From: Deinococcales bacterium | GTDB lineage: Bacteria > Deinococcota > Deinococci > Deinococcales > JAAFIG01 | Assembly (NCBI GenBank): GCA_013298595.1 | Contig: JAAFIG010000004.1 | Span: 1-64,000, forward strand | Length of the DNA stretch: 64,000 nt | Direction of reading: 5' to 3' | In this document: positions 1-64,000 of the stretch, one piece after another | Numbering within the stretch: position 1 is the stretch's first letter | How the letters are laid out: each line of letters opens with the position of its first letter | Notes under the pieces: generated by a model | Databases searched by the model: none | Seen by the model: the letters and a program-made list of their open reading frames with translations, nothing else | What the model was told of the DNA's origin: nothing | Position numbers and translations under genes: made by a program

Positions 1-1
1 A

Positions 2-91
2 GCTTTTCTCAAGGTTTTTGGTTGTGGCGATCCTGCTACAGGACGAACTCATTGGGTTCTAGCGGCGAACGATCTGCCACATCATTTCTAA
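2..91 (+). pseudogene. possible C-terminal tail of a transposase, cut by the window edge
   Basis: One frame is open from the left edge to a TAA at 89-91 and reads as about 29 residues, with the stretch THWVLAANDLPHHF just before the stop. A 'W..A(T/A)NDL' pattern close to the C-terminus is seen in several DDE transposases, where it precedes a final helix, but here the protein ends immediately after it. The fragment is too short to assign a family and no inverted repeat can be recognised beside it. It could equally be the end of an unrelated gene or a chance open frame. Confidence 0.25.
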
Positions 92-104
92 CCTCTTTTA
101 ATAT

Positions 105-126
105 ACAAGGGGCGAGGCATGCCTCG
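105..126. repeat. REP-like palindrome, copy 1
   Basis: The bases ggggcgaggcatgcctcg contain a perfect 14-bp palindrome (113-126) preceded by a G run. Two related elements occur at 48232-48258 and 53638-53664, all in intergenic DNA. The layout (G run, dyad, C run) resembles short extragenic palindromes common in many bacterial genomes. Here the right-hand C run is missing, so the copy looks decayed. Confidence 0.45.
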
Positions 127-163
127 AAAACGGCATGAGATGACTTTCGCTCGAGGGCGAGTG

Positions 164-1189
164 TCAGTTCCTCTGCTCGAGAGCGAGTTCAACCAATCTC
201 GAGACAAGTTCAGCGTAACTCAGTCCACCAGCTTCCCAGAGTTTTGGGTACATACTGGTTTTGGTAAATCCTGGAATGGTGTTGAGTTCGTTTAAGTACA
301 GTTCACCACTCTCTGGAACATAAAAAAAGTCTATGCGTGCCAGTCCAGCGCAATCAAGAATCTTGTACGACTCGAGCGCCATGGCTTGCACTTGTGCACT
401 AATCTCAGCTGGAACATTGGCAGGAATGTGCATTTCGGCTCGACCAGCTGTGTATTTGGTTTCGTAATCGTAGAATTCGGAATCGAAGGTCAGTTCGCCA
501 ACAGGACTGGCTTTAGGGTTGTCATTGCCAAGGATTGCTACTTCAAGCTCTCGAGGTTTGCCTTTGGTGCTGGCTTCAACAATCACACGGCGGTCAAATT
601 GAAAAGCAAAGCGCAGTGCCGCACGCAATTCCTCGGGGTTTTTAGCTTTAGAAATCCCTACACTCGAGCCTAAATTAGCTGGTTTAACAAAAACTGGATA
701 GCCTAAGTGCTCGAGCCGATCAATGATTTTTTCTGGATGACTCGAGAATTCATGGTGCGTCACAGCTTGATAAGCAACTTGTGGAATATTGTAGGTTGCC
801 AGCACGCTTTTCATCATGATTTTATCCATGCAGACACTGCTTGCCAGCACACTCGAGCCAACAAAAGGAATACCTGCTAAGCGCAGTAAGCCTTGGACAG
901 TACCATCTTCACCCATTGGACCATGAAGCAATGGAAAAACCACATCAAAACCAGCCGCGCTCGAGGCTTGAGATAAGACCAGCTCTCCTCCACTGGGAGC
1001 GCTGCCGCGTTCTAGGGCGTGTGGTGTTTCTGAAGGTGGTAACCATTTGCCTTCTCGGGTAATAACCACTGGGGTAACTTCAAATCGGTCTTTTGGTAGT
1101 GCCTCGAGCACACTTTTTGCACTTGAAAGGCTGACTTCATGTTCTTCGGATTGACCGCCGCATAAAACAAGTAAACGAATCTTTGACAT
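164..1189 (-). CDS. ddl: D-alanine--D-alanine ligase
   Basis: This cytoplasmic ATP-grasp enzyme joins two D-alanines for the peptidoglycan stem peptide. The 341-residue protein has the usual family length. The N-terminal [11 protein letters not shown] (10-20) is the D-Ala-binding loop. HGPMGEDG (89-96) is the family signature, MDK (121-123) supplies an ATP-binding lysine, [10 protein letters not shown] (169-178) is the glycine-rich ATP loop, and LNTIPGFT near residue 305 carries the Mg2+ and substrate residues. No key residue is missing. It is followed on the same strand, after about 40 bp, by nothing related: the upstream neighbour (1233-3086) is a histidine kinase. It belongs functionally with murE, anmK and the amidase elsewhere in the window. 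CTCGAG occurs about ten times in the first kilobase, most of it this gene. Confidence 0.96.
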
Positions 1190-1232
1190 CTACGGTTAGT
1201 CTCGAGTGACACGATGAGGCAATGGTTAGAGT

Positions 1233-3086
1233 TTAAGGAATCACGGCTGTCACTCGAGTGCCCATCGTTGGTTTACTGGAAAATTCAAAACGTCCACCTC
1301 TGGCTTCAACCCGTTCACGCATTTGCGTTAAACCCAAACCGCCAGCTGTGGTCACTTTGCCCGTCAGGGATTGTGGGTCAAAACCAATGCCATCATCCTG
1401 AACTGTTAATTGCGCCCCGCTGACATGGCTTTGCAAAGTCACAATGGCACTTTTTGCACGGCTGTGTTTTGCCACATTATTCAAAGCTTCTTGCAAAATC
1501 CGAAACATCACTGCTTCATTGGTTGGGCTAAGGCTCGGTTCACCATGCAACTCGAGGGTGGTTTTTAAGTTGTTCTGCTCACCAAAATCTTTGGTATATA
1601 AACGCACTGTCTCGAGAAAACCAAGGCGTTCAAGATCCAGTGGTCGCAGTGCAAAAATACTGCGCCGCACTTCTTTAATTTGTTCACGTAAAGTGGTTTT
1701 AGCAGTCTCGAGTTCAGAACGAACCCGTTCTGGGTCTCGCTCGAGTAGTTTACCCGCTAAATCGAGTTTCATAGCTGTAAAAGCTAAACTTTGGGCAATA
1801 CCATCATGGATTTCTCGGGCAATACGGCTGCGCTCATCAAAAATCGCAATTTCTTCGCTATACAGATAGGCTCGAGCATTTCGTACTGCTAAGGTCACTT
1901 GACTGGCAAGTAAATTCAGCAACGGTAATTCTTTAGTATCAAAAGCGTTTTCCTGGCTATGCCCCAATACAATCACACCAACTAATTCGGATTCAATCAG
2001 CATTGGTAAAGCAATTGCTGCTCGAGCACCACCAAGAATCGGGTCGTCTGGTTGATTGAGCAACACTAAACCATGTTTGGTCTCGAATGCAGATTGTTTG
2101 GCTAAATCGGCAATAGATAAAGGTAAGCGCTGTTCTGCTGCCTCGAGTGCAAAATTACCAACACTCCAGCCATGTTCATTGCCTGCACGTACCACATTGC
2201 CATGCAAATCCTGCCCCCAAGCCAGACTGAGTCGTCCGTCTTCATCTGTCAAATAAACAGCACTGGCTTCGGCTCGAACTCGTTCGCAAATACGTGTTAA
2301 CACATTCTCGAGTAAACGCTCTAAGTTACTTTCAGCTCGGATACTGCGATCCACTTCAAAGAGCGTTAATAAATCTCGGGTACGAATACTGGCTGCATCT
2401 ATGGCAACAGCTAATTCGCCAATCAGAATCCCCAGCAGTTCACGACTTTCGGCTCGAGGCATACCAACAAAATACAGATGCAACGCGCCTAAGAAATGTT
2501 CACCAAAGCGCAATGCATAACTCAAACGATTCTTTGCATTTGGCACACTTGAAGGGCGTTCAAGCATGGTTGTACTGGTTCGTAAAGGCTCAAGGTCAGT
2601 CACTTCTCGAGGTAAATCATCTAAATTATAGACTCGGACAACACCACTCTCGAGAATAATTGCGCCTGCAACAGCACCAACAGCTTGTGAGACACTGGCG
2701 ATCGCTGTCTCTAAAACACTTTCTAAATCTGAAGCCTCGGAAACATCTCGAGTCACTTGTTGCACTGCGGCTAAACGAGCATGCGATTCAGAAAGTTGGC
2801 TGTAAAATTCGCGCAATTCGTTTTCGGCGCGTTCACGTTCTTGTACTTCAGCAGCAATCCAAGTTAGTACAAAATAGGTCACAAACGGACCAAGAATGCC
2901 GTAAAAGCCCAGTTCAGCCCAAAAAGCTGTTCGACCTGGCTCGAGCCGCACAGCTAATAATTGGTATGCCAACACCACCAATACAATCAGTGGTGGTAGA
3001 ACTGCTTGGGCAACGCGTACTCGGCGATACAACACACCTGGCGCACGAGACACACCAAAAAAACCTGTTCGCCGCGATTGAGTCAC
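1233..3086 (-). CDS. GAF-domain sensor histidine kinase, NarL/HisKA_3 type
   Basis: This membrane-anchored kinase of 617 residues should phosphorylate a LuxR-type response regulator. Two hydrophobic segments (about 27-46 and 58-80) are followed by a short coiled coil, two GAF-like regions (about 115-240 and 250-400), a dimerisation/phosphoacceptor helix with IHDGIAQS (His near 427), and a HATPase domain with EALNNVAKH (near 534) and DDGIGFD. GLGLTQMRERV is the usual G-box. The GTG start overlaps the TGA stop of the upstream trmJ-like gene in the sequence GTGA, so translation is probably coupled. No response regulator is adjacent. The NarL-type regulator at 53669-54328 is far away and has its own kinase, so the partner is unknown. 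The signal sensed cannot be read from the sequence. Confidence 0.9.
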   Translation of the reverse strand: MTQSRRTGFFGVSRAPGVLYRRVRVAQAVLPPLIVLVVLAYQLLAVRLEPGRTAFWAELGFYGILGPFVTYFVLTWIAAEVQERERAENELREFYSQLSESHARLAAVQQVTRDVSEASDLESVLETAIASVSQAVGAVAGAIILESGVVRVYNLDDLPREVTDLEPLRTSTTMLERPSSVPNAKNRLSYALRFGEHFLGALHLYFVGMPRAESRELLGILIGELAVAIDAASIRTRDLLTLFEVDRSIRAESNLERLLENVLTRICERVRAEASAVYLTDEDGRLSLAWGQDLHGNVVRAGNEHGWSVGNFALEAAEQRLPLSIADLAKQSAFETKHGLVLLNQPDDPILGGARAAIALPMLIESELVGVIVLGHSQENAFDTKELPLLNLLASQVTLAVRNARAYLYSEEIAIFDERSRIAREIHDGIAQSLAFTAMKLDLAGKLLERDPERVRSELETAKTTLREQIKEVRRSIFALRPLDLERLGFLETVRLYTKDFGEQNNLKTTLELHGEPSLSPTNEAVMFRILQEALNNVAKHSRAKSAIVTLQSHVSGAQLTVQDDGIGFDPQSLTGKVTTAGGLGLTQMRERVEARGGRFEFSSKPTMGTRVTAVIP

Positions 3087-3850
3087 GATTCCTCCGTTTC
3101 AGGTCTAGGATACGGCACACTACCAGGAATCCCTAAACCTCGAGCTTTACGCGAAGCCCACAAACCCTGAGATAACAAACCGCGAATAAAAGCCACATCA
3201 TGGTTGTTTAATTGACTGCGGTTAAAAATGCTGCGAAAACGCCGCATCGCATGATCTTGACGATCATTGTTGGTATAACCCACTTCCAACATAAATTCGA
3301 GCAAATGGGCATACATCCCTTCAAGTGAACCTCGAGGCGCAAGTTTTTCACGCTCATGCAGCACTTCGGGTTGATGGTTTTCTCGAGCCAGCAATAACTC
3401 ATAAACAATCACTTGCACCGCTTGTGCTAAATTTAGCACTGGGTACTCACCTTCAGTTGGAATAGAAATCAAAGCATGGCATAAATCGAGCTCATCATTA
3501 AATAAACCATGTTCTTCACGCCCAAAAACCACTGCACTGGTATGAGGCATTAAAAACCGAGGAGCAACTTCTCGAGGGCTAACAATTTGAGTGTAATCCT
3601 TGCGGTCTCGAGCTGTTGTACCCACCACAAACTCTAAATCTGTGACAGCCTCCAAGAGCGTGGCAAAGATACTGGCATTCTCAATCAGTTCAAAAGCATG
3701 CACTGCCATTTTCTGAGCATCCTCGAGTTTGCAACGTGGTGCAACAATCCGTAAATCAGATAAACCAAAGTTTTTCATGGCCCGAGCCACGCTACCAATG
3801 TTATCTGGACCTTTAGGCGAAACTAAAACAATTGCGGGTTTCCCATTCAC
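3083..3850 (-). CDS. trmJ: TrmJ-like tRNA/rRNA 2'-O-methyltransferase (SPOUT)
   Basis: This SPOUT-fold, SAM-dependent methylase most resembles TrmJ, which methylates the ribose of tRNA position 32. In 255 residues it shows the N-terminal VSPKGPDNIGSVARAMKNFG motif, the FGREEHGL motif near 130 and the C-terminal knot region with IPT and LNLAQAVQV. These are the three conserved SPOUT motifs. The GTG start at 3850 has TAGACT 6 nt upstream and no Shine-Dalgarno, consistent with a leaderless message. The stop overlaps the start of the histidine kinase. The exact nucleotide target is inferred from family membership; a TrmH-type rRNA target cannot be excluded. Confidence 0.88.
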   Translation of the reverse strand: MNGKPAIVLVSPKGPDNIGSVARAMKNFGLSDLRIVAPRCKLEDAQKMAVHAFELIENASIFATLLEAVTDLEFVVGTTARDRKDYTQIVSPREVAPRFLMPHTSAVVFGREEHGLFNDELDLCHALISIPTEGEYPVLNLAQAVQVIVYELLLARENHQPEVLHEREKLAPRGSLEGMYAHLLEFMLEVGYTNNDRQDHAMRRFRSIFNRSQLNNHDVAFIRGLLSQGLWASRKARGLGIPGSVPYPRPETEES

Positions 3851-3871
3851 TCGAGTAGTCTACAAAAGTTG

Positions 3872-4360
3872 ATGCTCCAAAACCTACAAAAACTCTTAAT
3901 TGAACAAAAACAAGTGCTTCGGGCTGAACAACCTGCTCGAGGTTTATCCATTGCTAGAGGTTTACACGAAGCCCAAATAGCGATTTTTCTGGTGCAACTT
4001 ATCCTCATGATTGGACTAAGCACGATCCTGTTTATTGGTGGTACAACCCCCAAAGCTTACCCATTTTCGGGATGGTTTATGGCAATTGGTATACCGATTG
4101 CTATTTTTGTGGCAGTGTTTGCCGAATTATCCTTACGCCAAGAACCAACTTTTCCAAATGTATTGCAATACAGCATCCTCACTGGTGTGACTGCCGCTAT
4201 ACCCTTTAATTTAGGCGCATTGGTTTTATTACTCGAGGGGGTAACAATTGGTGCTGGTATTCTTGTTGGCTCGAGTTTAGTCACAATTGTCATTGTGCAT
4301 TCTAGGTTAGATCTATTAGCATTTCTGATTCCCCAAGATCAAAATACCCAAGAAAATTAA
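3872..4360 (+). CDS. small polytopic membrane protein, unknown function
   Basis: I do not recognise this 162-residue protein. A soluble, amphipathic N-terminus of about 35 residues is followed by four hydrophobic segments, roughly 36-55, 68-85, 100-120 and 123-145. The N-terminus is rich in Gln, Arg and Lys and could be a short coiled helix. It is divergent from the trmJ-like gene with only about 20 bp between the starts. ATG at 3872 is taken as the start; a TTG directly before it (3869) is possible. It lies 26 bp before comEA but no functional link can be read. Confidence 0.7.
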   Translation: MLQNLQKLLIEQKQVLRAEQPARGLSIARGLHEAQIAIFLVQLILMIGLSTILFIGGTTPKAYPFSGWFMAIGIPIAIFVAVFAELSLRQEPTFPNVLQYSILTGVTAAIPFNLGALVLLLEGVTIGAGILVGSSLVTIVIVHSRLDLLAFLIPQDQNTQEN

Positions 4361-4386
4361 GCTCGAGATGCTACGATGTTCTAGTT

Positions 4387-4920
4387 ATGGTAGCTAAACG
4401 GGAGCTTGTAATCACAACGGGTCTACTTGCGATTCTTGGGGGGGCAAGTTACTTTGCCCTTAAACCAACTGAAATTCCTGCTCCTCAAAATGCTTTACAA
4501 CGCCAAGCCATTCGGGTGGCAGTGGCTGGTGAAATCAAAAAACCAGGTGTATACACACTGCCTTGGGGTGCTCGTACCGAAGCAGCCATTACAGCAGCAG
4601 GCGGAACCACCGCCAACGCCGAACTGAGCTTAATCAATCCTGCCCAAATACTCACCGATGGCGACCAAGTTCGTATTCCCAGTAAAACCATCGAAAACAA
4701 CTCAGCTCCATCCTTGAGCCAAAATACCCTAGGAAACGGCGAACGTATCAACCTAAACACCGCCAGCCAATCACAAATCGAAAACTTACCTGGCGTTGGA
4801 CCAAAACTGGCTAAGCGCATCCTCGATGCCCGCCCGTACTCGAGTCTTAAAGATTTAGATGCAGTCAAAGGCATCGGACCATCCATGTTAAAAAAACTAG
4901 CACCCTTGGTACGATTCTAA
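4387..4920 (+). CDS. comEA: ComEA-like competence DNA-binding protein
   Basis: ComEA is the membrane-anchored receptor that binds incoming double-stranded DNA during transformation. The 177-residue protein has an N-terminal membrane anchor (about 8-24), a SLBB domain (about 42-102, with VAVAGEIKKPGVY) and a C-terminal helix-hairpin-helix pair (about 118-177) with INLNTASQSQIENLPGVG and GIGPSMLKKL. This is the full ComEA architecture. ComEC and the other uptake proteins are not adjacent, so this gene stands alone between a membrane protein and a Wzz-like gene. Early codons use a TTA/CCA-rich style like the rest of the window. Confidence 0.93.
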   Translation: MVAKRELVITTGLLAILGGASYFALKPTEIPAPQNALQRQAIRVAVAGEIKKPGVYTLPWGARTEAAITAAGGTTANAELSLINPAQILTDGDQVRIPSKTIENNSAPSLSQNTLGNGERINLNTASQSQIENLPGVGPKLAKRILDARPYSSLKDLDAVKGIGPSMLKKLAPLVRF

Positions 4921-4982
4921 ATTCATTGTTTTCATGATTTCAGAGTAGAATCATTCGTTGTACAATATTCAAACGGAGCAAT

Positions 4983-6911
4983 ATGAACGAAACCACCACC
5001 AACCCCGAACAAGAAATCTCCCTACGTGATGTCTATTTAATCCTGAAAAAGAATGTACTCATCATTCTGGCTGTACCCATTATTTTTGCCCTATTAGCCA
5101 CTGTTTATGCCGTTTTTATCGCCGATCCAGTCTACAAATCCGAAGCCAATCTAACCATTCAAACCACTGCTGTACAATCAAAAATTGAAGATAAAATCGA
5201 AACCAGTTCGATAGCGACATTCACCAGCGACCAAATCGAAACACTCGCTACTTCCAGACCAATTCTTGATAAATTGGTTGAACAAATCCGTGTTTCCAGC
5301 AATGCCCCAACAGCTTGGCGTATCGAACGCTTTGACGCCGATGCACTCGAGAAAAACCTGAAAGTTAAATTCCCTAAGCCAACTGCTCGCGGCACAGTCG
5401 ATGCGTCACTGGTAACACTCGAGGTCAGTGCACCTGATGCTAAACTCGCTGCTGAAATTGCCAATTTCTGGGCAACTGAAACTAATGTGGCATTAAATCG
5501 TTTACCCCAAGCTCGAGTGGCGGATTCAATTAAAACCCTAGAAGGCGAAATTATTCGTGCTCAAGATGGTTTAAGTGGTGCAGAGAAAAGTTTTCAGGAA
5601 TTCAATAACCGCAGTAATTTAAATTTAAATCAAGCTGAACTAAGTAGCGCCACCACAGAACGGGCTGGTTTAGACCCACTTATTTCTCAAACCCAACAAG
5701 CCCTAATTCAAACCCGAGCCGAATTAACCCGCCGTAACAGCGACTTAGGTATTGCCTCGAGCACCGTTGGGGTGAGCGCTGACAATACCCAAGCATTAGG
5801 CGTTGTGGCAAATGGGCAAACCCTAGCCCAAGTTAAACGCACCCTCAATCAGCAAGTAGCCTCCGCTCAGCAAAAAATGGCTGCTGCCAACGAAGCTTTA
5901 CGGCAGTTTAATGCAAGAAATGACGCACCTTTACTACGTAGCCGTATTGCACAAAATGAAGCTCGAATGGTGGATATCAACGCTCGTTTACAATCCTTTT
6001 CATCTTCATTACAAACCCTTAATGCTCGTTTGCAACAAGCTCGTAGCGAAATTAAGTTACAACCAGAATTGGTCACACTCGAGAAAGAACTACTCAACGA
6101 TCCTGTGATTGGCGCAGCCATTCAAACCCAAGATCCAAACCTCAACAGTCTGGTTGGTTTGAAGTTGCAAAATCAAGAAGTCAACCCTGTTCATCGTGAA
6201 CTAGTACAATCAATTATTGGTTTACAAAATGATATTCGTGCTTTAACAGCTGACCGTGATGGTATTAAAATCGAGCAACAAAACCGCAATACCCAACTTA
6301 GTATTGATCGTCAGCGTCTAGCTGCTTTGAACAAACTGGCTGAACCTTTAGCCCTTGAAGTGCGAGCTGCTCAGTCCACCTATGAAAATGCTCGAGCACA
6401 AGAAAGCCGCCTCGATGGGATTGCTGAATCCCAACTTAGTACTATCTCAGTAGAAAATACCAACCCCGAGTATCAGCGTTTACGCACTCTGGTCAATGAC
6501 CTTTCCTCAAGTGAATCGCGCTTAAAAGTGACATTAACTGGCTATCAGACTCGAGCCAAGCAATTAGATAATAGAATTTTTGAGTTAAAGCGTGTGGTTG
6601 CTTTAGATGGCATCAGTTCAGCCCGTATTGGTCAACGTCTTGAATTAGCTCGAGAACAATTTAAGACACTCAGTCAGAAATTAGTGGATTTAAAAATTGA
6701 ACAAGCCTCAAGTAAAACCTTGGCACAGATTCTGGTACCTGCTTTTGCACCTACCCGCACTGCTCAAAGTCGGTTCATTGTGGTTTTACTGGCTATTGTG
6801 GCAGGTTTTCTGATTGGTTTGATTGTACCATTTGTTCTCGAAGCATTGCGTGACCCTAACAAGGCTGTATTGCCGCGTCGTTCGATGCCTGTTTTAGCTG
6901 CTGAAGATTAA
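4983..6911 (+). CDS. Wzz/GumC-type polysaccharide chain-length determinant
   Basis: This inner-membrane protein of 642 residues probably controls polysaccharide export or chain length. It has a short cytoplasmic N-terminus, a first membrane helix (about 24-48), a long extracytoplasmic region dominated by coiled coil (about 170-590) and a second helix (about 595-620) close to the C-terminus. No Walker motif or tyrosine-rich tail follows, so the tyrosine-kinase domain of BY-kinases is absent. A Shine-Dalgarno GGAG sits 5 nt before the ATG, and TACAAT (4961-4966) is a plausible -10 box. The terminator at 6928-6961 closes the gene as a single unit. No polymerase or flippase is adjacent. Confidence 0.85.
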   Translation: MNETTTNPEQEISLRDVYLILKKNVLIILAVPIIFALLATVYAVFIADPVYKSEANLTIQTTAVQSKIEDKIETSSIATFTSDQIETLATSRPILDKLVEQIRVSSNAPTAWRIERFDADALEKNLKVKFPKPTARGTVDASLVTLEVSAPDAKLAAEIANFWATETNVALNRLPQARVADSIKTLEGEIIRAQDGLSGAEKSFQEFNNRSNLNLNQAELSSATTERAGLDPLISQTQQALIQTRAELTRRNSDLGIASSTVGVSADNTQALGVVANGQTLAQVKRTLNQQVASAQQKMAAANEALRQFNARNDAPLLRSRIAQNEARMVDINARLQSFSSSLQTLNARLQQARSEIKLQPELVTLEKELLNDPVIGAAIQTQDPNLNSLVGLKLQNQEVNPVHRELVQSIIGLQNDIRALTADRDGIKIEQQNRNTQLSIDRQRLAALNKLAEPLALEVRAAQSTYENARAQESRLDGIAESQLSTISVENTNPEYQRLRTLVNDLSSSESRLKVTLTGYQTRAKQLDNRIFELKRVVALDGISSARIGQRLELAREQFKTLSQKLVDLKIEQASSKTLAQILVPAFAPTRTAQSRFIVVLLAIVAGFLIGLIVPFVLEALRDPNKAVLPRRSMPVLAAED

Positions 6912-6927
6912 TTGGTCTTTCGGCTAC

Positions 6928-16810: not shown

Positions 16811-16845
16811 AAAGCGCCTCGAGTTTGCTCGAGGCGCTTTTTATT
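16811..16845. terminator. bidirectional terminator built on two CTCGAG sites
   Basis: A perfect 13-bp stem (16811-16823 with 16828-16840) and a 4-nt loop TTTG. Each arm contains one CTCGAG. T-rich tracts flank both sides, so it can end the BMP gene and the convergent DUF4388 gene. Confidence 0.93.
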
Positions 16846-23484: not shown

Positions 23485-25203
23485 ATGGATCAATTACTTA
23501 TTGGTCTGCTTATTGGCGTTCTTGTCGGGGCTGGAGTCATTTACGCCGTTCTCAATGCGAATTTTAAGCGCACCCTCGAGACTCGGAGCAATGCTGATAC
23601 GGAAATCCGTGAAGCCGCGCAACGTGAAGCCGAAACCATCCGACGTGAAGCCGAAGCAGTTAAATTACAAGCCACTACTCTTAAAGCGCAAGCTGAATCT
23701 GATGCTGCCCGAATTAAACAAGATGTTGAGTTACGTGCTCGAGACGAAGCACTGGCATTTCAAAACAAGTTAGAATCTGAACTTAGAACTAAATTTGAAC
23801 TCGAGTCAAATCGAGAGCGCGAAGTTATCAAAGCCGACCGCGAAACCATCAAAGCCGACCGTGATGGACTGAAATCAGAACGCGATGGGTTACGCTCCGA
23901 ACGCGAAGAACTCCGCCTCGAGTCCGAACGTTTATCTCGGCGTGGCGAGCAAATGGACACCCGAGCCAGCAAACTTGATCAACTCGAAGAAACCCTCGAA
24001 ACAGATAAAAAACGAACTGCCGAGTTACAAATCAGTTTGGAACAAAAAATCCATGAATCTGAACTGAAACTCTACGAAGTTGCCCAACTGACCCGCGAAG
24101 ATGCCGCCAAACAAATTCTCGAGAAACTAGATGATGAACTCGAGGAGGAAAAAGTGGTACGAATTCGTACCATGATGAACCGCGTTAACCTCGATGTTAA
24201 ACGCCAATCACAAAGTATCATTGCTCAAGCCATTCAACGCAGTGCCTCGGAAACCACCGCTCAAATCAGTGTTTCGGTTGTGCCAATCCCATCTGATGCC
24301 ATGAAAGGCAGAATTATTGGACGTGAAGGTCGGAACATTCGCGCCTTTGAAGCCTTAACAGGTGTTGACCTGATTATCGATGACACCCCAGAAGCTGTGA
24401 TTCTCAGTAGTTTCAACCCAATACGCCGCGAAGTAGCCGTCAAAGCCCTCGAGCAATTGGTTGGCGATGGACGCATTCACCCAACCCGTATCGAAGAAGT
24501 TGTCCAAAAAGCCCAAGACGAAATGAAAACCTACATCCTCGAGCGTGGCGAAGAAGCCGCTATTGAAGCCAATGTTGTTGGTTTAAAACCAGGTTTATTA
24601 CAACTCATGGGTCGGATGCACTTTCGCACCAGTTATGCCCAAAATGTACTCAAACACAGCATCCAAGTCGCACATTTAACTGGCATTATGGCAGCTGAGC
24701 TTGGATTAGATGCAGTCATGGCAAGACGCGCAGGGTTACTACACGATATTGGAAAAAGTATTGACCGTGAAATCGAAGGTACCCACGTAGATATTGGTAT
24801 TACCCTAGCAAAACGCTTTGGTGAACCATTTGAGGTTATAGATGCCATTGCACATCACCATGACCCAGAAAACGGTGAAAGTGTCTACAGCGTTCTGGCA
24901 GCCGCAGCTGACGCAATCAGTGCTGCTCGTCCAGGTGCTCGCCGTGAAGACCTCGAGACCTATGTTAAACGCTTACAACAACTCGAGACCATCGCTGTCT
25001 CATTTCCTGGTGTGGAAAATGCTTTTGCCATTCAAGCCGGACGCGAAGTGCGCGTGATTGTGCAACCTGAGAAAGTCTCGGATAGCAAAGCCACCATGTT
25101 AGCCAGGGAAATCGCCACCCGCATTGAGCAAGATATGGAATACCCAGGGCAAGTGCAAGTCACTGTGGTACGTGAAATGCGTTCAGTTGAATACGCCAGA
25201 TAA
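23485..25203 (+). CDS. rny: ribonuclease Y
   Basis: RNase Y is a membrane-tethered endoribonuclease that initiates mRNA decay. The 572-residue protein has an N-terminal anchor (about 4-24), a charged coiled coil (about 30-215) rich in Arg, Glu and Ala, a KH domain with [19 protein letters not shown] (near 275) and an HD domain with [10 protein letters not shown] (near 415) and [16 protein letters not shown] lies 6 nt upstream. A hairpin (25226-25257) that starts 23 nt after the stop may be its terminator although it lies inside the next gene. Confidence 0.96.
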
Positions 25204-27685: not shown

Positions 27686-28472
27686 TTTGCAAAAAAACTT
27701 GAACTGCGTTCTCGAGACTGATTTGGTTGGCATCAACAGCTTGTAAGTATTGCTGTAAAAACCTGTTCAGATAGCCTTTGCCAGTTAGAAGCTCAAGCCT
27801 GAGCAAATGCCCTAATACACCTATTTCTGAAATATAAGTGTCGCTAAAATCTGCCAAGGCAGCTTCTAAATTGTAAGGCACAAACCTTGGCTCGAGACTC
27901 CAAACACTGCGTTTGGTCAGAATCGCATACTGGGCTTCTAATCGTCCACCAAGTGGTACTCCTGCTGACTCGAGTGTATACACTGTGCGGTTATCCCAGT
28001 TTCTTGTCAACCATTTGTGATTGTGTCCACGTACAATAAAAGGCTCAGTTGTGTCAGCAAACATAGCACGGAGGTCATCGGCACTCGAGTCTAAAGTAAT
28101 GCTTTCGCTAAGGCTTCTAGCAGTCGCGTGCGTGATGAGTAAATCTGGATACCTGTAAACTCGAGGCAAAGCCTGCATCGTTTCTAGTTGTGTCTGAGAG
28201 AACTGGGCATGAGTCCAACGAATTGGTTGAAAACGGGCTTGGTCAAATAGCTGATTTATCCCTACTGAATACATATATTCTTCGTGATTGCCCTGTAATA
28301 CAGGACAATTCAGTGCCATGACCATTTCAAAACATTGTCTTGAGTGAGGGTATTGGTTGACAACATCACCAGCGATTACAATTTCATCCACGGCTTGATT
28401 TTGAATATCCTCGAGAATTGCCTCGAGTGCATGGAGATTACCGTGGATGTCTGAAACAATCGCTATTCGCAT
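27678..28472 (-). CDS. calcineurin-like metallophosphoesterase
   Basis: A 264-residue phosphoesterase with the standard motifs in order: MRIAIVSDIHGN (1-12), IAGDVVNQYP, LQGNHEEYM, THA near 115 and RGHNHKW (about 155). All metal ligands are present. The family acts on phosphodiesters of nucleotides or other substrates, and the target is not readable here. TAGAGT lies 7 nt before the ATG at 28472; a GTG three codons upstream is possible. It may be transcribed with the merR gene that follows. Confidence 0.85.
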   Translation of the reverse strand: MRIAIVSDIHGNLHALEAILEDIQNQAVDEIVIAGDVVNQYPHSRQCFEMVMALNCPVLQGNHEEYMYSVGINQLFDQARFQPIRWTHAQFSQTQLETMQALPRVYRYPDLLITHATARSLSESITLDSSADDLRAMFADTTEPFIVRGHNHKWLTRNWDNRTVYTLESAGVPLGGRLEAQYAILTKRSVWSLEPRFVPYNLEAALADFSDTYISEIGVLGHLLRLELLTGKGYLNRFLQQYLQAVDANQISLENAVQVFLQST

Positions 28473-39875: not shown

Positions 39876-40418
39876 ATGAACGCCACCCAATCCCAACTCA
39901 GCCTCGAGCAATACCTCGAGCTAGAAAAACATGCTGAAATCAAGCATGAATTCGTGGATGGGCAAGTATATGCAATGGCAGGAGCAAGTAAAACGCATAT
40001 TCGGTTAATGCTCAACATTGCGCGTTACCTCGAGACCAAAGAAAGTTGCGAGGTTTATACCAGTGACCTCAAAATAATCATTACTGAACCACCAAAAGTC
40101 ACGTATTACCCAGATGTTGTTGCAGTTTGCGAAGATGAACCCGAAACGCACAGCACCAGCCATCCGTGTTTTGTGGTCGAAGTATTATCCGAAAGCACCA
40201 AACGAATTGACTTAACCGAGAAAAAAACTAATTATCAACGCATTGAAAGCCTCAAAGCCTACATGATCGTGCATCAGGATCAAAAACTGGTGGAAATGCA
40301 CCGTCGACTCGAGGATGGAACTTGGCAGCACGAACAATACATCGGTGGTGATATAGAAATACCATGCTCTAACACGAAATTGACACTCGAGCAGATATAC
40401 AAAGGAGTAAGAGAATAG
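39876..40418 (+). CDS. Uma2-family putative restriction-like endonuclease
   Basis: A 180-residue Uma2/DUF820 protein with a PD-(D/E)xK nuclease fold. LSLEQYLELEKHAEIKHEFVDG is the family N-terminus, YYPDVVAV the PD motif and FVVEVLSEST the ExK-like strand. Uma2 proteins are found in many copies in cyanobacteria, Chloroflexi and Deinococcota; their biological role is unknown. It interrupts the AAA+/zinc-ribbon/VWA gene order. A paralogue lies at 43053-43631. Confidence 0.9.
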   Translation: MNATQSQLSLEQYLELEKHAEIKHEFVDGQVYAMAGASKTHIRLMLNIARYLETKESCEVYTSDLKIIITEPPKVTYYPDVVAVCEDEPETHSTSHPCFVVEVLSESTKRIDLTEKKTNYQRIESLKAYMIVHQDQKLVEMHRRLEDGTWQHEQYIGGDIEIPCSNTKLTLEQIYKGVRE

Positions 40419-56988: not shown

Positions 56989-56994
56989 AGTCCA

Positions 56995-58200
56995 ATGACA
57001 ATTCACAGCCATCTCGAGCAGAATAAACCCATGAGAATAGGAATTGTTTTAATCATCGCAGGAGCATTATTTTTTGTGGCAAATACACCAAGTTTATTTC
57101 GTGATTTGCGTGGCACGAAAATCAATTTGCAAAGTGTAGCAGAGCAATTACAGCCTAAAGACAATCGCCAAGAGAGCATAACTCCTCGAGAAAACACAGC
57201 CTCCACAGAAACATTGAATCTGGATACTATTAAAACCCTGATTCTTGAGACCAGCGACGGCATAATTAACGTTGATACCAAAAGCTCAAATGTTCGTAAT
57301 CAATTACAAATTGTGAAACGTGGCGCGGTCAGTACTAACGTCACCCGCGATGGCAATACATTACGAGTCGAACTGAAAAGCCAATTGCTTAACTGCCAAA
57401 AATGCGGCGCAGATTACACCGTGGCATTGCGCGAAGGCATCAACCTCGAGTTGCACAATAGTTCTGGCAATATTTTTGTTCAGGGCAACGCCCTTGATAT
57501 TAAAGCCAGTGCCGCTGACGGCAACATCAATTTAACAAACACAGGTAATACCAGCCAAATTAAACTCGAGGTAGCCAGTGGCAACATCAATTTGCAAAAT
57601 GCCCAAGGCAAAATTGATATTAGTAATGCCGATGGCAACACCGAGTTACGCAACCTCGAGAACGCCCAATTAAACCTTGAAGCCTCGAGTGGCACAGTAT
57701 TTCTGGATGGCATTGGGTTTAGTAACAACGAACAAAGTTTAACCCTTGCCGATACAAAACTCGAGCTTCGTAACGCCCGCAATGCTAACCTAAAAATCTC
57801 GAGCAGTAGCCAAAAAATTCTGCTCGAGAACATCGAATTTAGTGGTTTAAGCAACATCGAAAGCGCGAACAGCGAAGTACGTTTACTCAACACCAAAAAC
57901 ACCCATATTAACATCAGCAACTCGAGCCAAAATATCATCCTCGAGAACACTACTTTTATGGCTGGCTCGAGCAATAAAATAAGCATTGCTGATGGCAATG
58001 TCAGCATCGTTAACCTCAACACCCAAGATGGTTTTAAACTCGAGGGAACAGGTGCAGATACATCTTTTCAGAATGCGTTAACCAATTTTCAAACCGAGTT
58101 AAACCCAAATGAGGAACTGCTATACCGTTCCGTGAGGAACGGCGAAAATCCTGCAAAACTCGAGATAGACAGTAGTAGTGCTCGAGTGACAATTCAATAG
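56995..58200 (+). CDS. membrane-anchored repeat protein, DUF4097-like beta-solenoid
   Basis: A 401-residue protein with one N-terminal helix (about 14-32), a spacer and a series of short beta-strand repeats from about 80 to 390. Units such as GNINLTNTGN, GNINLQNAQG and GNTELRNLEN recall DUF4097/putative adhesin solenoids. A Cys pair CQKC lies near 130. Asn is very frequent. The start at 56995 is 6 bp after higA; ATG 57031 would begin directly at the membrane helix and is an alternative. I do not assign a role. CTCGAG occurs twelve times in 57001-58000. Confidence 0.7.
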   Translation: MTIHSHLEQNKPMRIGIVLIIAGALFFVANTPSLFRDLRGTKINLQSVAEQLQPKDNRQESITPRENTASTETLNLDTIKTLILETSDGIINVDTKSSNVRNQLQIVKRGAVSTNVTRDGNTLRVELKSQLLNCQKCGADYTVALREGINLELHNSSGNIFVQGNALDIKASAADGNINLTNTGNTSQIKLEVASGNINLQNAQGKIDISNADGNTELRNLENAQLNLEASSGTVFLDGIGFSNNEQSLTLADTKLELRNARNANLKISSSSQKILLENIEFSGLSNIESANSEVRLLNTKNTHINISNSSQNIILENTTFMAGSSNKISIADGNVSIVNLNTQDGFKLEGTGADTSFQNALTNFQTELNPNEELLYRSVRNGENPAKLEIDSSSARVTIQ

Positions 58201-58446: not shown

Positions 58447-60252
58447 ATGAAAAGTAAGATTTTCGGTTTATTAGCAACAGGTTTGGTAGCTGTTCTCACA
58501 GCTTGCCCACCACCACCGCCAGTAGTCACAACAGTTGCAGTTACGGGTAATAATACACTCACCAATGGATCGGCTGCGGCAACATACACGGCGACATTCA
58601 CACCTACTGCCACAACAGGTACAGTCGAGTGGACACTCAACCCACCAGCACCAAATGGTGGATCGCTTTCTGCTGTTTCAAGTACCATTGCTAACGGTAT
58701 TGCCACCGTTCAGTACACCCCACCAGTTACTGTCTCTGCAGCAATTCAAGTAACATTGACTGCCGTCAAGCAAGGCTCGAGTCCAGCCATCACAGACGTA
58801 AAAACCATTACTGTTAACCCAACAGTAACAACGGGTGTTACTGTCAATGGTAAGGTTTTCCAATGGAATAACCGTGCATTCGATGATGTCAACATTTTCA
58901 TCACCGATGCCACAGGTACAAACTTGCCAGACACACAATCAGCGGTGGATGGTACATTCAGCGTTGCTAATGTGGTTCCGCCGTACACCATCTCAGCAGT
59001 GCCAGCCCCAGGAACTGCTGTTGCACCAATCTCGTATGATGCAGTTTCAACAACAACACCGAACCTTGTGTTGACAAAATCACAATACTTGTTCGGCAAC
59101 CCTCCTGGCTTTAACCCAGACCAAGTTTCTGGTGTCAACGAAAACTGCCTTCCAAAACGCCAAGACGGCATCATGTCAGTTCGTTTAGCAAGCCCAGTGC
59201 CTGCAACTTCATCAGCACGAGCTATTTTCTTTGGCGAAGGTATTTCTTTCCGACCAACAGAATCAACCGCTTCAGATATTATTCCAGGCGGTAGTACCAA
59301 CGTTTCTTTCGCAGTTCCTTTCGACCAAGAATTCTGTAAGAACGTGATTGATGGAAAATTACTTGTTATCGAATTCGATGCAGGTGGAGTTATTCAGAAA
59401 AAAGGCTTCCGTGATGTTTCTGTCATCACAGGTAATAAGACTTGTGTTGGTCAATGTGTTGGTGCTGGTGGTACAGACACACCAAACCTGAACTTGAACC
59501 AAAGCACAGGTTTGAGCTTCACAGGTAATGTGGAATTCCCACAAGGTGCAGACGAAACAACTTCTGCTGTTACCGCATTTATTCGCTTCCAAAAACTGCC
59601 AACCGATGTTCCTTCCTACTTCCCATTAAAAGTTGATAATGTCACTCGTGCAGATCCAAATTACAACACTGGTGTGATTGACTTAGCAACCGAAGGCTTG
59701 TCCTACCGTCTCCAAGCTAGAGTCAATAACGTCGCGGGTGATGCAGTTTCATGGGCAAACTCGGCTATTTTCACATCACCACAATCAGGTGTTGTTCTTA
59801 ACTACCCAAGCTTTGGTGGTACAACCACACCAAATGGTAATACCCCAGATAGCGACGTAACTCCAACATTTAGACAAGGTACAGTTAGCCAAATGAACAC
59901 ATACTTCCGTTTCTTCCAAAGCGCAGTTCTCTCTGAGTTATGGTTAGGTGGTTCACCAATCACTTCCATGACCTTACCTGTCTTACCAGACCCTGCACGT
60001 TTAGCAGTGCAAAGACCATACAATTGGTTTGCACTTAATGCCTTGAAACTTGCCGATGTCACCGCAACCAATAACGGCAGCAATGTTGCTCTTGGTAATG
60101 TGGCAGCAGGTGGACTTGCTCGCCCGTACAATGCACTTCGTAACTTGTACGGCTTCAATGCAGCATCAGAGTTAGACCTCATTAACGCTGGTTCAGTAAA
60201 CCTTAAGCCAACACCTGCTTGTGTTATCACCCCTGGTCAAAACTGCCCATAA
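58447..60252 (+). CDS. large surface lipoprotein with Ig/CarboxypepD_reg-like region
   Basis: A 601-residue lipoprotein. The signal peptide ends in the lipobox LTAC, Cys20, followed by five prolines. Residues 30-130 form an Ig-like strand module with many Thr; about 130-200 resembles the CarboxypepD_reg fold (VNGKVFQWNNRAFDDVNIFI, with TFSVANV). The C-terminal 400 residues are unassigned beta-rich sequence with one Cys pair (KTCVGQCVG) and a terminal Cys pair. AGGAGG precedes the start. Only one CTCGAG occurs in 1.8 kb. The terminator at 60271 follows. Confidence 0.8.
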   Translation: MKSKIFGLLATGLVAVLTACPPPPPVVTTVAVTGNNTLTNGSAAATYTATFTPTATTGTVEWTLNPPAPNGGSLSAVSSTIANGIATVQYTPPVTVSAAIQVTLTAVKQGSSPAITDVKTITVNPTVTTGVTVNGKVFQWNNRAFDDVNIFITDATGTNLPDTQSAVDGTFSVANVVPPYTISAVPAPGTAVAPISYDAVSTTTPNLVLTKSQYLFGNPPGFNPDQVSGVNENCLPKRQDGIMSVRLASPVPATSSARAIFFGEGISFRPTESTASDIIPGGSTNVSFAVPFDQEFCKNVIDGKLLVIEFDAGGVIQKKGFRDVSVITGNKTCVGQCVGAGGTDTPNLNLNQSTGLSFTGNVEFPQGADETTSAVTAFIRFQKLPTDVPSYFPLKVDNVTRADPNYNTGVIDLATEGLSYRLQARVNNVAGDAVSWANSAIFTSPQSGVVLNYPSFGGTTTPNGNTPDSDVTPTFRQGTVSQMNTYFRFFQSAVLSELWLGGSPITSMTLPVLPDPARLAVQRPYNWFALNALKLADVTATNNGSNVALGNVAAGGLARPYNALRNLYGFNAASELDLINAGSVNLKPTPACVITPGQNCP

Positions 60253-60270
60253 TCTTCAAATAGCTTTGTT

Positions 60271-60305
60271 ACTCGAGCCTCCCAAAAGGAGGCTCGAGTT
60301 TTTTA
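60271..60305 (+). terminator. terminator, first of two near-identical copies
   Basis: A 12-bp stem (60271-60282 with 60288-60299), loop CAAAA and six T. Both arms carry CTCGAG. The same 29 bases and the following TTATTGCC recur at 61018. Confidence 0.93.
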
Positions 60306-60340
60306 TTGCCTTTGCTTTTGCTGTGGCTTTAGCCTGAATC

Positions 60341-60369
60341 TTTGCAAAAAGTCCGTTTTGTGGCACAAT
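60341..60369 (+). promoter_or_regulatory. candidate promoter of the antitoxin gene
   Basis: TTTGCA (60341-60346), a 17-bp spacer and CACAAT (60364-60369) end 6 nt before the ATG. The message would be leaderless. Confidence 0.45.
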
Positions 60370-60375
60370 AACACC

Positions 60376-60618
60376 ATGAGCTTACTCGAGTTACAAAACC
60401 AAGCTGCACAATTACCATTGGATCAACGAACTGCTTTGATTCTTCATTTACAACAAACATTGACCGCTGAACAATTACAAACTTTACTACTCGAGAAAAC
60501 AAAAAATGAAACTCAGTATCAATCTTGGGTTGGTATTGGCGCATCAGGAATTGGGAATTTATCTGAACGAATAGACGAATTGCTTTTTGCCGATTCACCC
60601 CTCGAGCGCCAAAAGTGA
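60376..60618 (+). CDS. VapB-type antitoxin candidate
   Basis: An 80-residue protein directly before a PIN toxin, its stop overlapping the toxin GTG in GTGA. The first 45 residues are helical, rich in Gln and Leu (LQNQAAQLPLDQRTALILHL), and the C-terminus is acidic, ending DELLFADSPLERQK. No DNA-binding motif is recognised, so the antitoxin role rests on context, size and coupling. Confidence 0.7.
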   Translation: MSLLELQNQAAQLPLDQRTALILHLQQTLTAEQLQTLLLEKTKNETQYQSWVGIGASGIGNLSERIDELLFADSPLERQK

Positions 60619-61013
60619 TTCTATGTGATACTGGAGCTTTGGTTGCTCTGATAGATACTTCAGATAAACATCATGTAGCCGTTAAAGCATTTAGTACCGA
60701 GAAGCTACTTGTTCCGACAACTGTATTATGCGAAGTTGATTATTTTTTAACCAAATACCTTGGCGACAATGTTGCCAAAACTTTTTTGGAACGTGTGGCA
60801 AAAAATAATGAATTACTCGTTTTTGACGAAACAGATTTGGTTCGTGTCAACCAAATTCGTCGGCATTACAACGATTTACCGCTTGGTTTTGTGGATGCTA
60901 GTTTGGTTGCCTTAGCAGAACGTTATCGAATTCGTCAGATTTTAACCATAGATCGTAAGCATTTCTTAGCGGTTCAACCACTTCATTTAGGACATTTTGA
61001 ATTATTGCCATGA
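60615..61013 (+). CDS. VapC-like PIN-domain ribonuclease toxin
   Basis: The 132-residue protein has the PIN acidic triad: ILCDTGAL (Asp5), TVLCEVDYFL (Glu near 40) and GFVDASLVALAER (Asp near 93), and a final ILTIDRKHF strand. Such toxins cleave tRNA or rRNA with Mg2+. The GTG start overlaps the antitoxin stop. The second terminator copy begins 5 bp after the stop. Confidence 0.88.
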   Translation: MILCDTGALVALIDTSDKHHVAVKAFSTEKLLVPTTVLCEVDYFLTKYLGDNVAKTFLERVAKNNELLVFDETDLVRVNQIRRHYNDLPLGFVDASLVALAERYRIRQILTIDRKHFLAVQPLHLGHFELLP

Positions 61014-61017
61014 GCCA

Positions 61018-61053
61018 ACTCGAGCCTCCCAAAAGGAGGCTCGAGTTTATTAT
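61018..61053 (+). terminator. terminator, second copy
   Basis: The stem (61018-61029 with 61035-61046) and loop are identical to 60271-60299, and TTATTATTGCC follows. It also faces the convergent fic gene. Confidence 0.9.
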
Positions 61054-61075
61054 TGCCTTGCCGTAGCTCGAGGTT

Positions 61076-62101
61076 TTATCGTTTGCGTTTGTATTTCGTA
61101 GCTCGTCCAGCACCGTGTTTCTCGAGCAACCCTAATTGAACTAAGTACGTCAAATCTCGAGCGGCAGTCATATGCGAAGCACTTGTTAGGCGTTGTATAT
61201 CTGCGTTTGAAATTAGGGCATTCGTTGGTTCTAGTAATGCCAATATCCGCCATTGACGTTCGTTGAGTAACGGTATTTCGGGTAAGGTTTGATGCTCTTT
61301 GGTTTGTAAACGTTGTTTTAGATTTTGTAATTGCTCGAGTAAGCCTGTCACAACAAAGTATATCCATGCTGCCCAGTCTTGGTGCTTTAAACTCGTTTGA
61401 ATTTTTTCATAGTATTGAAATAGGTGATTTTTGTAATAGGGTTCAAGTGCAATCAGTCCTCGAGCATCCCATGCGTGTTGTGCCAACACCAGTGTCTCGA
61501 GTAAACGTGCTGTGCGTCCGTTCCCATCCATGAATGGATGAATTCGTACAAATTCGAGGTGGATGATGGCTGCTCGAATTGCGGGGTGGAGTGATGATTG
61601 CTGATTCCATTGGCACATCGCTGCGATGCGCTGTGCTATATCTTTGGCTGGGTCGCCTTCGTGGACTGGTTCTTGTGTTCGGGTATCAAAAACAAATACA
61701 GGGTCTGTTCGCCATTTTCCAAGACGGGCTGGTAGATCAAGGTCACGCATAATCATATGGTGTAGTTCTATAATTGTTTGACTATCTAGTGGCTTGTTAT
61801 GTCCTGACCATTCATGGCGAATCCAATCTAAGGCATGTTTATAATTGCGAACTTCAATTTCACGGTTACGTGGTTTAAGTATTGGTTGATTACTCAGTAA
61901 TTTGCGTACTTCCTCGAGCGTTAATGGGTTTCCTTCGATAGCAGTGCTGTAATGTGTTGCTTCGATGCTGCTTTGGAAGCGCCACTCGAGTTCTATTTGT
62001 GGGTTTATTGGTGTCAGTAACACTGTTTGCCTGAGAAGACTGGCTTGCCACAGCAATGCTTCAAGATTGGCTGAAATCAGAATTTGCGGTTGGAAAATCA
62101 T
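61076..62101 (-). CDS. Fic-domain protein with self-inhibitory motif
   Basis: A 341-residue AMP-transferase-like enzyme. HPFMDGNGRTARLLE (near 170) is the full Fic motif with catalytic His. TAIEGNPLT near residue 48 matches the (S/T)xxxE(G/N) inhibitory helix of class II Fic proteins, so the enzyme should be autoinhibited. The C-terminal 80 residues look like a winged helix (RQWRILALLEP). ATG 62101 follows TATGAT by 6 nt; the longer frame to 62197 is AT-rich and unlikely. Confidence 0.9.
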   Translation of the reverse strand: MIFQPQILISANLEALLWQASLLRQTVLLTPINPQIELEWRFQSSIEATHYSTAIEGNPLTLEEVRKLLSNQPILKPRNREIEVRNYKHALDWIRHEWSGHNKPLDSQTIIELHHMIMRDLDLPARLGKWRTDPVFVFDTRTQEPVHEGDPAKDIAQRIAAMCQWNQQSSLHPAIRAAIIHLEFVRIHPFMDGNGRTARLLETLVLAQHAWDARGLIALEPYYKNHLFQYYEKIQTSLKHQDWAAWIYFVVTGLLEQLQNLKQRLQTKEHQTLPEIPLLNERQWRILALLEPTNALISNADIQRLTSASHMTAARDLTYLVQLGLLEKHGAGRATKYKRKR

Positions 62102-62107
62102 CACATA

Positions 62108-62113
62108 ATCATA
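62108..62113 (-). promoter_or_regulatory. -10 box TATGAT, 6 nt before fic
   Basis: On the minus strand TATGAT ends 6 nt before the ATG at 62101. The surrounding DNA is T-rich and no single -35 stands out. Confidence 0.45.
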
Positions 62114-62324
62114 ACAAAATCGTAACAAAATAAAAAACGCTATTGCGAAGCTCGAGCTTTGGCTGCTCAAAAGCTCATCAAACCCAAACTGCACCAAAAT
62201 CTCATATATAAGACTTATTAAAGTTTTGTGTGATTTACAGCGTACTCATGATAAATTCTTTGCACCAATACCTCATTCTCGAGGCTTAGCGTTCTCGAGT
62301 ACCGAAGTATTTTTGGAGGTTTTC

Positions 62325-63188
62325 ATGAAAAAATTAGGATTAGTTGTAGCTGCGTTCTTACCGTTCGTCCTCAATTCGTGTTTGAATCAAACACCACCAA
62401 TTAATACGGTCAGTCCCGCTGGTGTTTATCAGGATTCCAATGTCTTAACTGTTGGTATTTGCGGTGCAGTTAACGGCTCGAGTTTAAAATTGCGTTTTGT
62501 GATTCCCGAACCAACCGCTACTGGAGCAATTAATTTTCAAGTTGTCTCGGATTCATTTACGCCACCTGGTGGGTTAAGTAGTGGTAATGGTGTGGTCACA
62601 CAAACGGTGATTGGTTCGTATGCCAATACCTCGAGTGCTTTGACTGGTTCGTTTAAAGTAGATTCCAATACCACCACAATATCTGGGGCATTTAATGAAG
62701 CTCGAACTCAGTTTTCTGGAACGTTAACAGCTTCGTGTACTAATTCGCCAAGCAGTTCTCCTGTTAATTACACTTTTGTGGCTGTTAAACAAACAGGTTC
62801 GGTCAGTCCTGTTGGATTGTACAAAGATAACAATGTCAGTAACACAAGTTTTTGTGCGACTGCGGCTGGTATAACCACCAAAATTTCGCTTTCTTTGCCC
62901 GAACCTTCCACTTCTGGCGCACTGAGCATTCCTGTCACAGTGCAAAACATTACTGATACAACGAACAGCACCTCGAGTGGCACACTGACAGGTTCGTACA
63001 ACGCTGGCACGGGTAACTTCACGGGTTTTGGTACGATTACACTCGAGGGTGGCACAACCAGCAATACAGCCACTGTTAATGGCAACCTCAATTTACTAGC
63101 AAATCAAATCTTTGGTTCGCTCACCCTGACTTGTGGCTCGAGTCCAACGCCATCTGGAACACTCAAATTCTTAGCTGTCAAACAATAA
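62325..63188 (+). CDS. lipoprotein with two related beta domains
   Basis: A 287-residue lipoprotein. The signal peptide ends LNSC with Cys19. The mature part contains two units of about 125 residues, each starting VSP.G.Y.D.NV, with PEP..(T/S)GA in the middle and F.AVKQ at the end, and each with two Cys. This is an internal duplication. No family is recognised. GGAGG lies 6 nt before the ATG. It converges with glgA with 6 bp between the stops. Confidence 0.78.
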   Translation: MKKLGLVVAAFLPFVLNSCLNQTPPINTVSPAGVYQDSNVLTVGICGAVNGSSLKLRFVIPEPTATGAINFQVVSDSFTPPGGLSSGNGVVTQTVIGSYANTSSALTGSFKVDSNTTTISGAFNEARTQFSGTLTASCTNSPSSSPVNYTFVAVKQTGSVSPVGLYKDNNVSNTSFCATAAGITTKISLSLPEPSTSGALSIPVTVQNITDTTNSTSSGTLTGSYNAGTGNFTGFGTITLEGGTTSNTATVNGNLNLLANQIFGSLTLTCGSSPTPSGTLKFLAVKQ

Positions 63189-63194
63189 GCTTTT

Positions 63195-64000
63195 TTACGC
63201 GCCGTACAACTGCAAGTATTGTTGTGCGGCGTTATCCCATGAAAAATTGGTCTGCATTGCCTCGAGCACCTTAGCTTCCCAAGCTGGTGTACGCCATTGA
63301 GACCTTGCATAACTGGCTGTATTTGCTAATGCACGGCTCGAGTATTCCCAGAACGGGTATCCCCTACTTTCAGGCACGGTATCCAGCAACCCACCAACTG
63401 CTCTGGCGATTGGTAATGTGCCATAACGCATACTAATCATTTGTGATAAACCACAAGGCTCGAACAAACTTGGCATCAGAAACGCATCTGCTCCAGCGTA
63501 AATCCGATGAGCAAAAGGTTCGTTAAAACCACTCGAGAAGTGAATATTAGGTCTGGTTTCCATAAACCAACGCAAACCTTGTTCTGCACCTGTATCACCA
63601 CTACCAAGCACCACGATATTCCAATCGCGTGCCATTTCCTCGAGTGCTCCAAACATAATACTCAGACCTTTTTGCTCGGATAAACGGCTCACCATTGCCA
63701 GTGTTGGGCGGTTTGGATCAAGATTTAATTCTTGGCACAAAGCAACTCGGGCTTTTTCCTTCCCTTTAAAATCCGAGAATTGCTGCGAGATGTGTTTATC
63801 CGAACTCGGATTCCAATAATTGGTATCTATGCCATTCAAAATACCTGTGACCCCTCGAGATCGCAGAACGCCGTCTAAGCCAAAGCCACCCTCGGCTGTG
63901 GTAATTTCCCAAGCGTATCTTGGTGAGACAGTGCTGATTACATCTGAGTAAGCAATACCTGCTTTTAAGCAATTGGCATCGCCGTTATACTCAAGACCAT
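63195..64000 (-). CDS. glgA: glycogen synthase, C-terminal part (runs off the window)
   Basis: The 3' part of an ADP-glucose-dependent starch/glycogen synthase of the GT5 family. Reading continues without a stop to the right edge; the 63839 ATG is internal. Visible in order are KAGIAYSDVISTVSPRYAWE, GVLRSRGVTGILNGID, MVSRLSEQKGL, VVLGSGD, and the donor site SLFEPCGLSQMISMRYG. All are family signatures. About 268 residues are present; the N-terminal domain lies beyond 64000. Confidence 0.93.
   Translation of the reverse strand, partial: GLEYNGDANCLKAGIAYSDVISTVSPRYAWEITTAEGGFGLDGVLRSRGVTGILNGIDTNYWNPSSDKHISQQFSDFKGKEKARVALCQELNLDPNRPTLAMVSRLSEQKGLSIMFGALEEMARDWNIVVLGSGDTGAEQGLRWFMETRPNIHFSSGFNEPFAHRIYAGADAFLMPSLFEPCGLSQMISMRYGTLPIARAVGGLLDTVPESRGYPFWEYSSRALANTASYARSQWRTPAWEAKVLEAMQTNFSWDNAAQQYLQLYGA

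Follow-up and report, generated by a model that had tools for sequence, protein, structure and literature searches.

CTCGAG is a highly iterated palindrome in an uncultured family of Deinococcota, and its copies exclude one another over about 20 bp

The window analysed here, a stretch of 64,000 nucleotides from a MAG labelled Deinococcales bacterium, contains 391 copies of the palindrome CTCGAG (6.1 per kb) where base composition predicts 12.4, with at least one copy in 63 of its 64 kilobases. A sequence-only reading had proposed that the word is iterated throughout the window, and the two local counts on which it drew, ten and twelve copies in single kilobases, proved exact (table 1). The over-representation is real and genome-wide: the genome to which the window belongs (G000) has 27,159 copies in 4.58 Mb, that is 5.93 per kb or one per 169 bp, about 30 times expectation, and the excess extends to relatives, which rules out an effect limited to the window. 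The letter-reversed control GAGCTC occurs only 15 times in the whole of G000. The longest CTCGAG-free stretch of the window lies in the gene for a T/P/V-rich secreted lipoprotein-like product, which appears poor in Leu-Glu and in other places that would permit the word. All genomes considered are MAGs; 0.35−0.92 Mb of sequence was read per genome of the window's family, whole genomes were covered by counts only, and gene calling relied on taking the longest ORF, a simple rule.

Shuffling of synonymous codons in the window genes gave 29.4 ± 4.8 copies against 346 observed, and codon usage measured outside the motif predicts 14.5 copies, a 24-fold excess. Split by frame, there are 185, 91 and 70 copies against codon-corrected expectations of 5.8, 6.8 and 1.9. 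The order-4 Markov expectation, named beforehand by the sequence-only reading as a refuting check, is 339 and so lies near the observed 391. This value is a self-reference artefact, because the pentamers CTCGA and TCGAG lie mostly within CTCGAG, and the check would therefore have misfired; with both strands counted, models of order 1 and 2 predict 9.1 and 12.6 once CTCGAG is masked, equivalent to 4.6 and 6.3 copies.

What is under pressure is the DNA word itself, almost everywhere on the chromosome, within genes and between them. Two-thirds (66%) of Leu-Glu dipeptides in G000 are spelled CTCGAG against 2% expected, and 62% and 36% of protein-permitted places are occupied in the other two frames, where 4% and 1% are expected. 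Coding and intergenic densities are equivalent (5.7 and 5.9 per kb), and no enrichment was found at promoters, gene starts or gene ends. Word pressure overrides codon choice and also raises Leu-Glu in proteins: this dipeptide ranks first in over-representation among some 390 in all four genomes of the family (observed/expected 2.2−2.4), and the pressure has therefore reached protein sequence. The corresponding controls are about 1.0 for Glu-Leu and 0.98 for Leu-Glu in Thermus. Enrichment in three frames and between genes, together with the shuffling result, bears out the earlier claim that protein needs are not the cause.

Table 1. Coordinates of features in the window.
Feature	Position	Strand	Remark
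CTCGAG spread, 391 copies	1..64000	.	word count
Dense stretch, 10 CTCGAG	1..1000	.	word count
CTCGAG pair, 16818-16823 and 16828-16833	16818..16833	.	intrinsic-terminator-like hairpin stem, AAAAGCGCCTCGAGTTTGCTCGAGGCGCTTTTT
RNase Y gene	23485..25203	+	used for placing the genome among Deinococcota relatives
CTCGAG pair, centres 12 bp apart	28410..28427	.	spacing class rarer than expected
CTCGAG pair, centres 12 bp apart	39903..39920	.	close spacing
Densest kilobase, 12 CTCGAG	57001..58000	.	word count
Longest CTCGAG-free stretch of the window	58776..60271	+	within lipoprotein-like gene 58447-60252

The RNase Y loci closest to that of the window come from MAGs labelled Deinococcales bacterium, at 91% (L005, G001), 80% (L006, G002) and 76% identity (L007, G003; loci assigned to genomes by coordinate match), followed by Meiothermus, Calidithermus and Thermus, in agreement with the phylum that had been guessed. 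All four genomes of the window's family (G000−G003) carry 5.9−6.5 copies per kb, and two genomes of genus g11 in the neighbouring family f2 carry 6.2 and 7.7, giving a range of 6.0−7.7 for the dense genomes outside G000 (three of the family and two of g11). Other members of f2 have 3.6 (G008) and only 0.3 copies per kb (G004), and densities are lower in the remaining genera among the 111 genomes of the phylum surveyed. After codon correction the excess is 9−23-fold in loci of the family's relatives, 17-fold in G012, 3.2-fold in Meiothermus, 2.8-fold in Calidithermus, 2.0-fold in relatives of Truepera and 0.7-fold in Thermus. Five well-sampled genomes from two families, with GC contents of 45−59%, have similar densities, which suggests a maintained level.

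Copies arise anew nearly everywhere and are not kept at particular sites. Orthologues of G000 and G001 share 71% DNA identity; where Leu-Glu is conserved in both, G001 has CTCGAG at 82% of the places occupied in G000 and at 61% of those that lack the word there, so the force acts everywhere and not at fixed sites. Density falls to 0.5−2.4 per kb where GC is below 39%, against 6.4 per kb at 45−48% GC. Low-GC (31−37%) islands of G000, in loci L148 (12247−16528), L144 (4656−7010) and L146, contain almost no CTCGAG; they are probably recent acquisitions, judging foreignness by composition, and scarcity of the word could serve to detect acquired islands.

Copies seldom lie within about 20 bp of each other. 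At protein-permitted positions, Leu-Glu occupancy is about 75−80% far from other copies and 15−45% within 6−16 bp. Odds ratios for pairs, calculated for G000, G001, G002, G003 and G012 (two families), are 0.17−0.55 at 6−14 bp, 0.30−0.73 at 14−22 bp and about 1 beyond 22 bp. Such 2 × 2 odds ratios were preferred to an autocorrelation based on genome-wide rates, which makes the exclusion look too weak, since local occupancy is lower at candidate sites that lie close together. Leu-Glu close to another copy is spelled with the usual codons again: CTCGAG accounts for 34% of cases at distances up to 20 bp and for 74% at more than 80 bp. Intergenic pairs outside terminator-like stems are likewise scarce, with 26 at 6−11 bp and 49 at 12−19 bp where about 72 and 90 are expected. 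Control GC-rich 6-bp inverted repeats are depleted only at 6−11 bp, with no depletion beyond 9−12 bp, and control direct repeats are depleted at no spacing; on these grounds mRNA hairpins and repeat slippage were rejected as causes. No helical periodicity was found in the spacing of copies, and G008, in which the word is the octamer CCTCGAGG, showed no exclusion. In scale the exclusion matches a protein footprint or damage from paired nicks, but neither the 1-kb range of mismatch repair nor kilobase uptake fragments.

Some intergenic pairs in loci L133−L174 form intrinsic-terminator-like hairpins with a paired CTCGAG stem, as does one pair in the window. Separately, L173 and L174 (40−80 kb of contig C12 of G000) hold several copies of a dispersed intergenic unit, CCCTCGAG-8 nt-CTCGAGGG, possibly a small repeat family.

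The flanks of the word differ between lineages. In G008, CCTCGAGG makes up 46% of CTCGAG copies (6,195 of 13,552 genome-wide) and is 9.5-fold over codon-corrected expectation. The same octamer is shunned in the window's family (47 of 27,118 copies in G002 and 338 of 27,159 in G000), and 97% of the few copies in named Thermus loci (L020−L056) carry its inward flank. TCGA is avoided outside CCTCGAGG in those Thermus loci. The first 100 kb of G008 (L216−L220) contain the 8-mers GATTTGAA and ATTTGAAC 50 times, more than 200 times expectation, probably stemming from a repeat array. Words one base away from CTCGAG are not depleted: observed/expected ratios for TTCGAG and CTTGAG are 1.17 and 1.13 in G000 and 0.95 and 0.80 in G003. 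Nearly all other hexameric palindromes are avoided in the window and in G000−G003 (in total 0.33−0.49 of expectation): the observed/expected ratio is 0.01 for GGCC in G000, G001 and G003 and 0.08−0.35 for CCGG in the family, and GAGCTC is almost missing. This suggests heavy past restriction pressure.

Methyltransferases of four families (C5, PF00145; Eco57I-type, PF07669; N4/N6, PF01555; D12, PF02086) were sought in 12 MAGs, some with contigs missing, and candidate sequences were compared between genomes. The sequence-only reading had proposed to look for a CTCGAG-specific methylase: methyltransferases are present, several of them in G000, but none could be assigned to the word and, within the sensitivity of these searches, none was found common to all dense genomes in this set, and the cyanobacterial rule of an iterated palindrome with its cognate methyltransferase is therefore not confirmed here. 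All of the most complete dense genomes carry C5 methyltransferases, and one such enzyme is common to G000, G001 and G012 only (59−74% identity). The densest genome, G016 (a MAG 58% complete), yielded no member of the four families. An MT-A70 search gave no match, its positive control being absent. Vsr endonuclease (PF03852) was detected in only one of the 12 genomes, G008, and is absent from the window's family, while five control genomes match; XhoI endonuclease (PF04555) matched none of the 12, and none of its control genomes either. The window's contig, beyond the window, carries an N4/N6 DNA methyltransferase gene (G000:C34:88751−89662; 343 aa, SPPYWGHREY).

Our tentative preference is that CTCGAG is favoured because a conserved dimeric DNA-binding protein docks there. 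Such a reader would be sequence-specific and twofold-symmetric, with a footprint of about 18−22 bp, and might act in the nucleoid, in repair or in marking replication. Every further site would bring a small benefit, a 25−30-fold excess being equivalent to about 3.3 in scaled selection or bias, and the benefit would lapse where a neighbouring copy already fills the same footprint. The exact location of each copy would be irrelevant, and flanks would be expected to shift between lineages if the reading protein evolves. Near-saturation, turnover, the Leu-Glu excess, exclusion, the scarcity of close intergenic pairs and the shift in dialect all argue for docking. Against it, exclusion was not seen in G008 and could elsewhere stem from breaks at paired nicks, functionless biased repair or conversion could give the same equilibrium frequencies, and no reading protein was identified. 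A broader proposal, which we regard as somewhat doubtful, is a docking code across the Deinococcota, in which CTCGAG and its dialects would be recognized by an undescribed conserved reader and would organize the chromosome in one uncultured family. If this were true, one site per 170 bp and a 20-bp exclusion would organize the chromosome, with thousands of codons and the dipeptides of the proteome rewritten.

The main rival to docking is methylation-linked repair as conceived by Elhai, in which a CTCGAG methyltransferase marks the word, mismatch or patch repair keeps the mutations that create it, and the excess is partly or wholly a by-product. Cyanobacterial HIPs are almost always accompanied by a cognate methyltransferase (PMC4390886), methylation of CTCGAG has precedents in Nocardia (PMC4752239) and Halorubrum (PMC8112702), and the distribution of C5 methyltransferases described above is consistent with this scheme. 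It is nonetheless rather unlikely, as no member of the four families was found in all dense genomes and Vsr is absent from the family. Elhai's ratchet should moreover come to a halt at roughly one site per 1,000 bases, where six to eight are seen here, and exclusion spans about 20 bp rather than 1,000; patch repair that restores C would also deplete TTCGAG and CTTGAG, neither of which is depleted. A functionless mutation or conversion bias, whereby a sequence-specific enzyme (a nickase, a recombinase or a homing-like enzyme) makes the word or repairs towards it, fits location-independent saturation, rapid turnover, the change in protein composition and short-range exclusion, as close pairs would be purged by breakage of the DNA at double nicks no more than about 20 bp apart. 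No enzyme of this kind is known or was identified, and the similar density of the five genomes of 45−59% GC points to a maintained level, so we consider such a bias distinctly unlikely.

Very unlikely, in our judgement, is a DNA uptake signal, by which competent cells would favour fragments bearing CTCGAG, transformation would be biased accordingly and dialects would act as species barriers. Location independence, the scarcity in low-GC islands and the paired terminator-like stems are compatible with it, and the lineage dialects resemble those of the Neisseriaceae DUS (PMC3630211). However, six to eight copies per kb exceed the densest DUS genome (5,918 in 2.4 Mb; PMC3630211), uptake in kilobase-sized pieces reaches saturation at a much lower density and leaves a 20-bp exclusion unexplained, and DUS and uptake signal sequences are longer and non-palindromic. 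Nor does the spacing look like one signal per fragment, with a mean of one copy per 169 bp and exclusion confined to distances under about 22 bp. An origin in ordinary codon usage, in protein composition or in an order-4 artefact is extremely improbable and, for codon usage and amino acid need, refuted in the window's family by the three frames, intergenic DNA, masked models (4.6−6.3 copies), synonymous shuffling (29 against 346) and the 15 copies of GAGCTC, even though the order-4 expectation is 339 and Leu-Glu codon use alone yields many CTCGAG in Thermus and other GC-rich genomes.

HIP1 has long been unexplained, largely since it was studied only in cyanobacteria and with one core word. A second, independent case of higher density in a different phylum, showing dialects and an exclusion distance that can be measured, provides a natural comparative design: the feature is absent in G004, moderate in the cultured Meiothermus and Calidithermus and extreme at the far end of the gradient, and the cultured genera put tests of binding, methylation and transformation within reach. 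A general explanation of HIPs must now accommodate densities of six to eight per kb together with a 20-bp exclusion and, if that negative result holds, must work without a shared methyltransferase. A further lesson is that protein composition can change through pressure on a DNA word alone. Our incomplete literature search found no paper uniting CTCGAG with highly iterated palindromes, and priority is not fully excluded.

Whatever the mechanism, CTCGAG is almost certainly a HIP-type element, as the sequence-only reading had held in calling it HIP-like with another word: a 6-bp palindrome in excess genome-wide, in all frames and at equal density between genes, and scarce in low-GC, presumably acquired DNA. 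HIP1 proper is GCGATCGC, with GATC and CGATCG methyltransferases; the word here differs, and CGATCG has a single copy in the window where 12.4 are expected. The cyanobacterial HIPs comprise HIP1 (GCGATCGC) and the alternates GGCGCC (Calothrix PCC 7103), GGGATCCC and TCGATCGA (Elhai 2015, PMC4390886). Like CTCGAG, they are short palindromes iterated genome-wide in extreme excess, one word having varying flanks (extended HIPs). The present element differs in phylum and core word, in its six bases with no favoured extension in the window's family, in having no common methyltransferase that we could find, and in the 20-bp exclusion and altered dipeptide composition measured here. It is also denser, at 5,930 per Mb and about 30-fold excess; most cyanobacterial HIPs reach some 500−2,500 per Mb, and 15.5 times expectation is reported for GGCGCC in Calothrix D253 (PMC4390886).

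With the Neisseriaceae DUS, whose dialects are documented (PMC3630211), and the Pasteurellaceae uptake signal sequences, CTCGAG shares thousands of copies, location independence and lineage dialects; unlike them it is palindromic, shorter, at least twice as dense as in the densest DUS genome and excludes its neighbours at 20 bp. The same word is a non-restriction methylation target in Nocardia, where an orphan CTCGAG methyltransferase occurs and sites are reported to cluster near dnaA (PMC4752239), whereas copies here are uniform genome-wide and no methyltransferase is assigned to them; m5C methylation at CTCGAG is also described in Halorubrum (PMC8112702). XhoI and PaeR7I restriction-modification systems recognize this word too, but restriction would predict its avoidance and an excess is seen. 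CTCGAG is thus an independent and more extreme counterpart of cyanobacterial HIP1.
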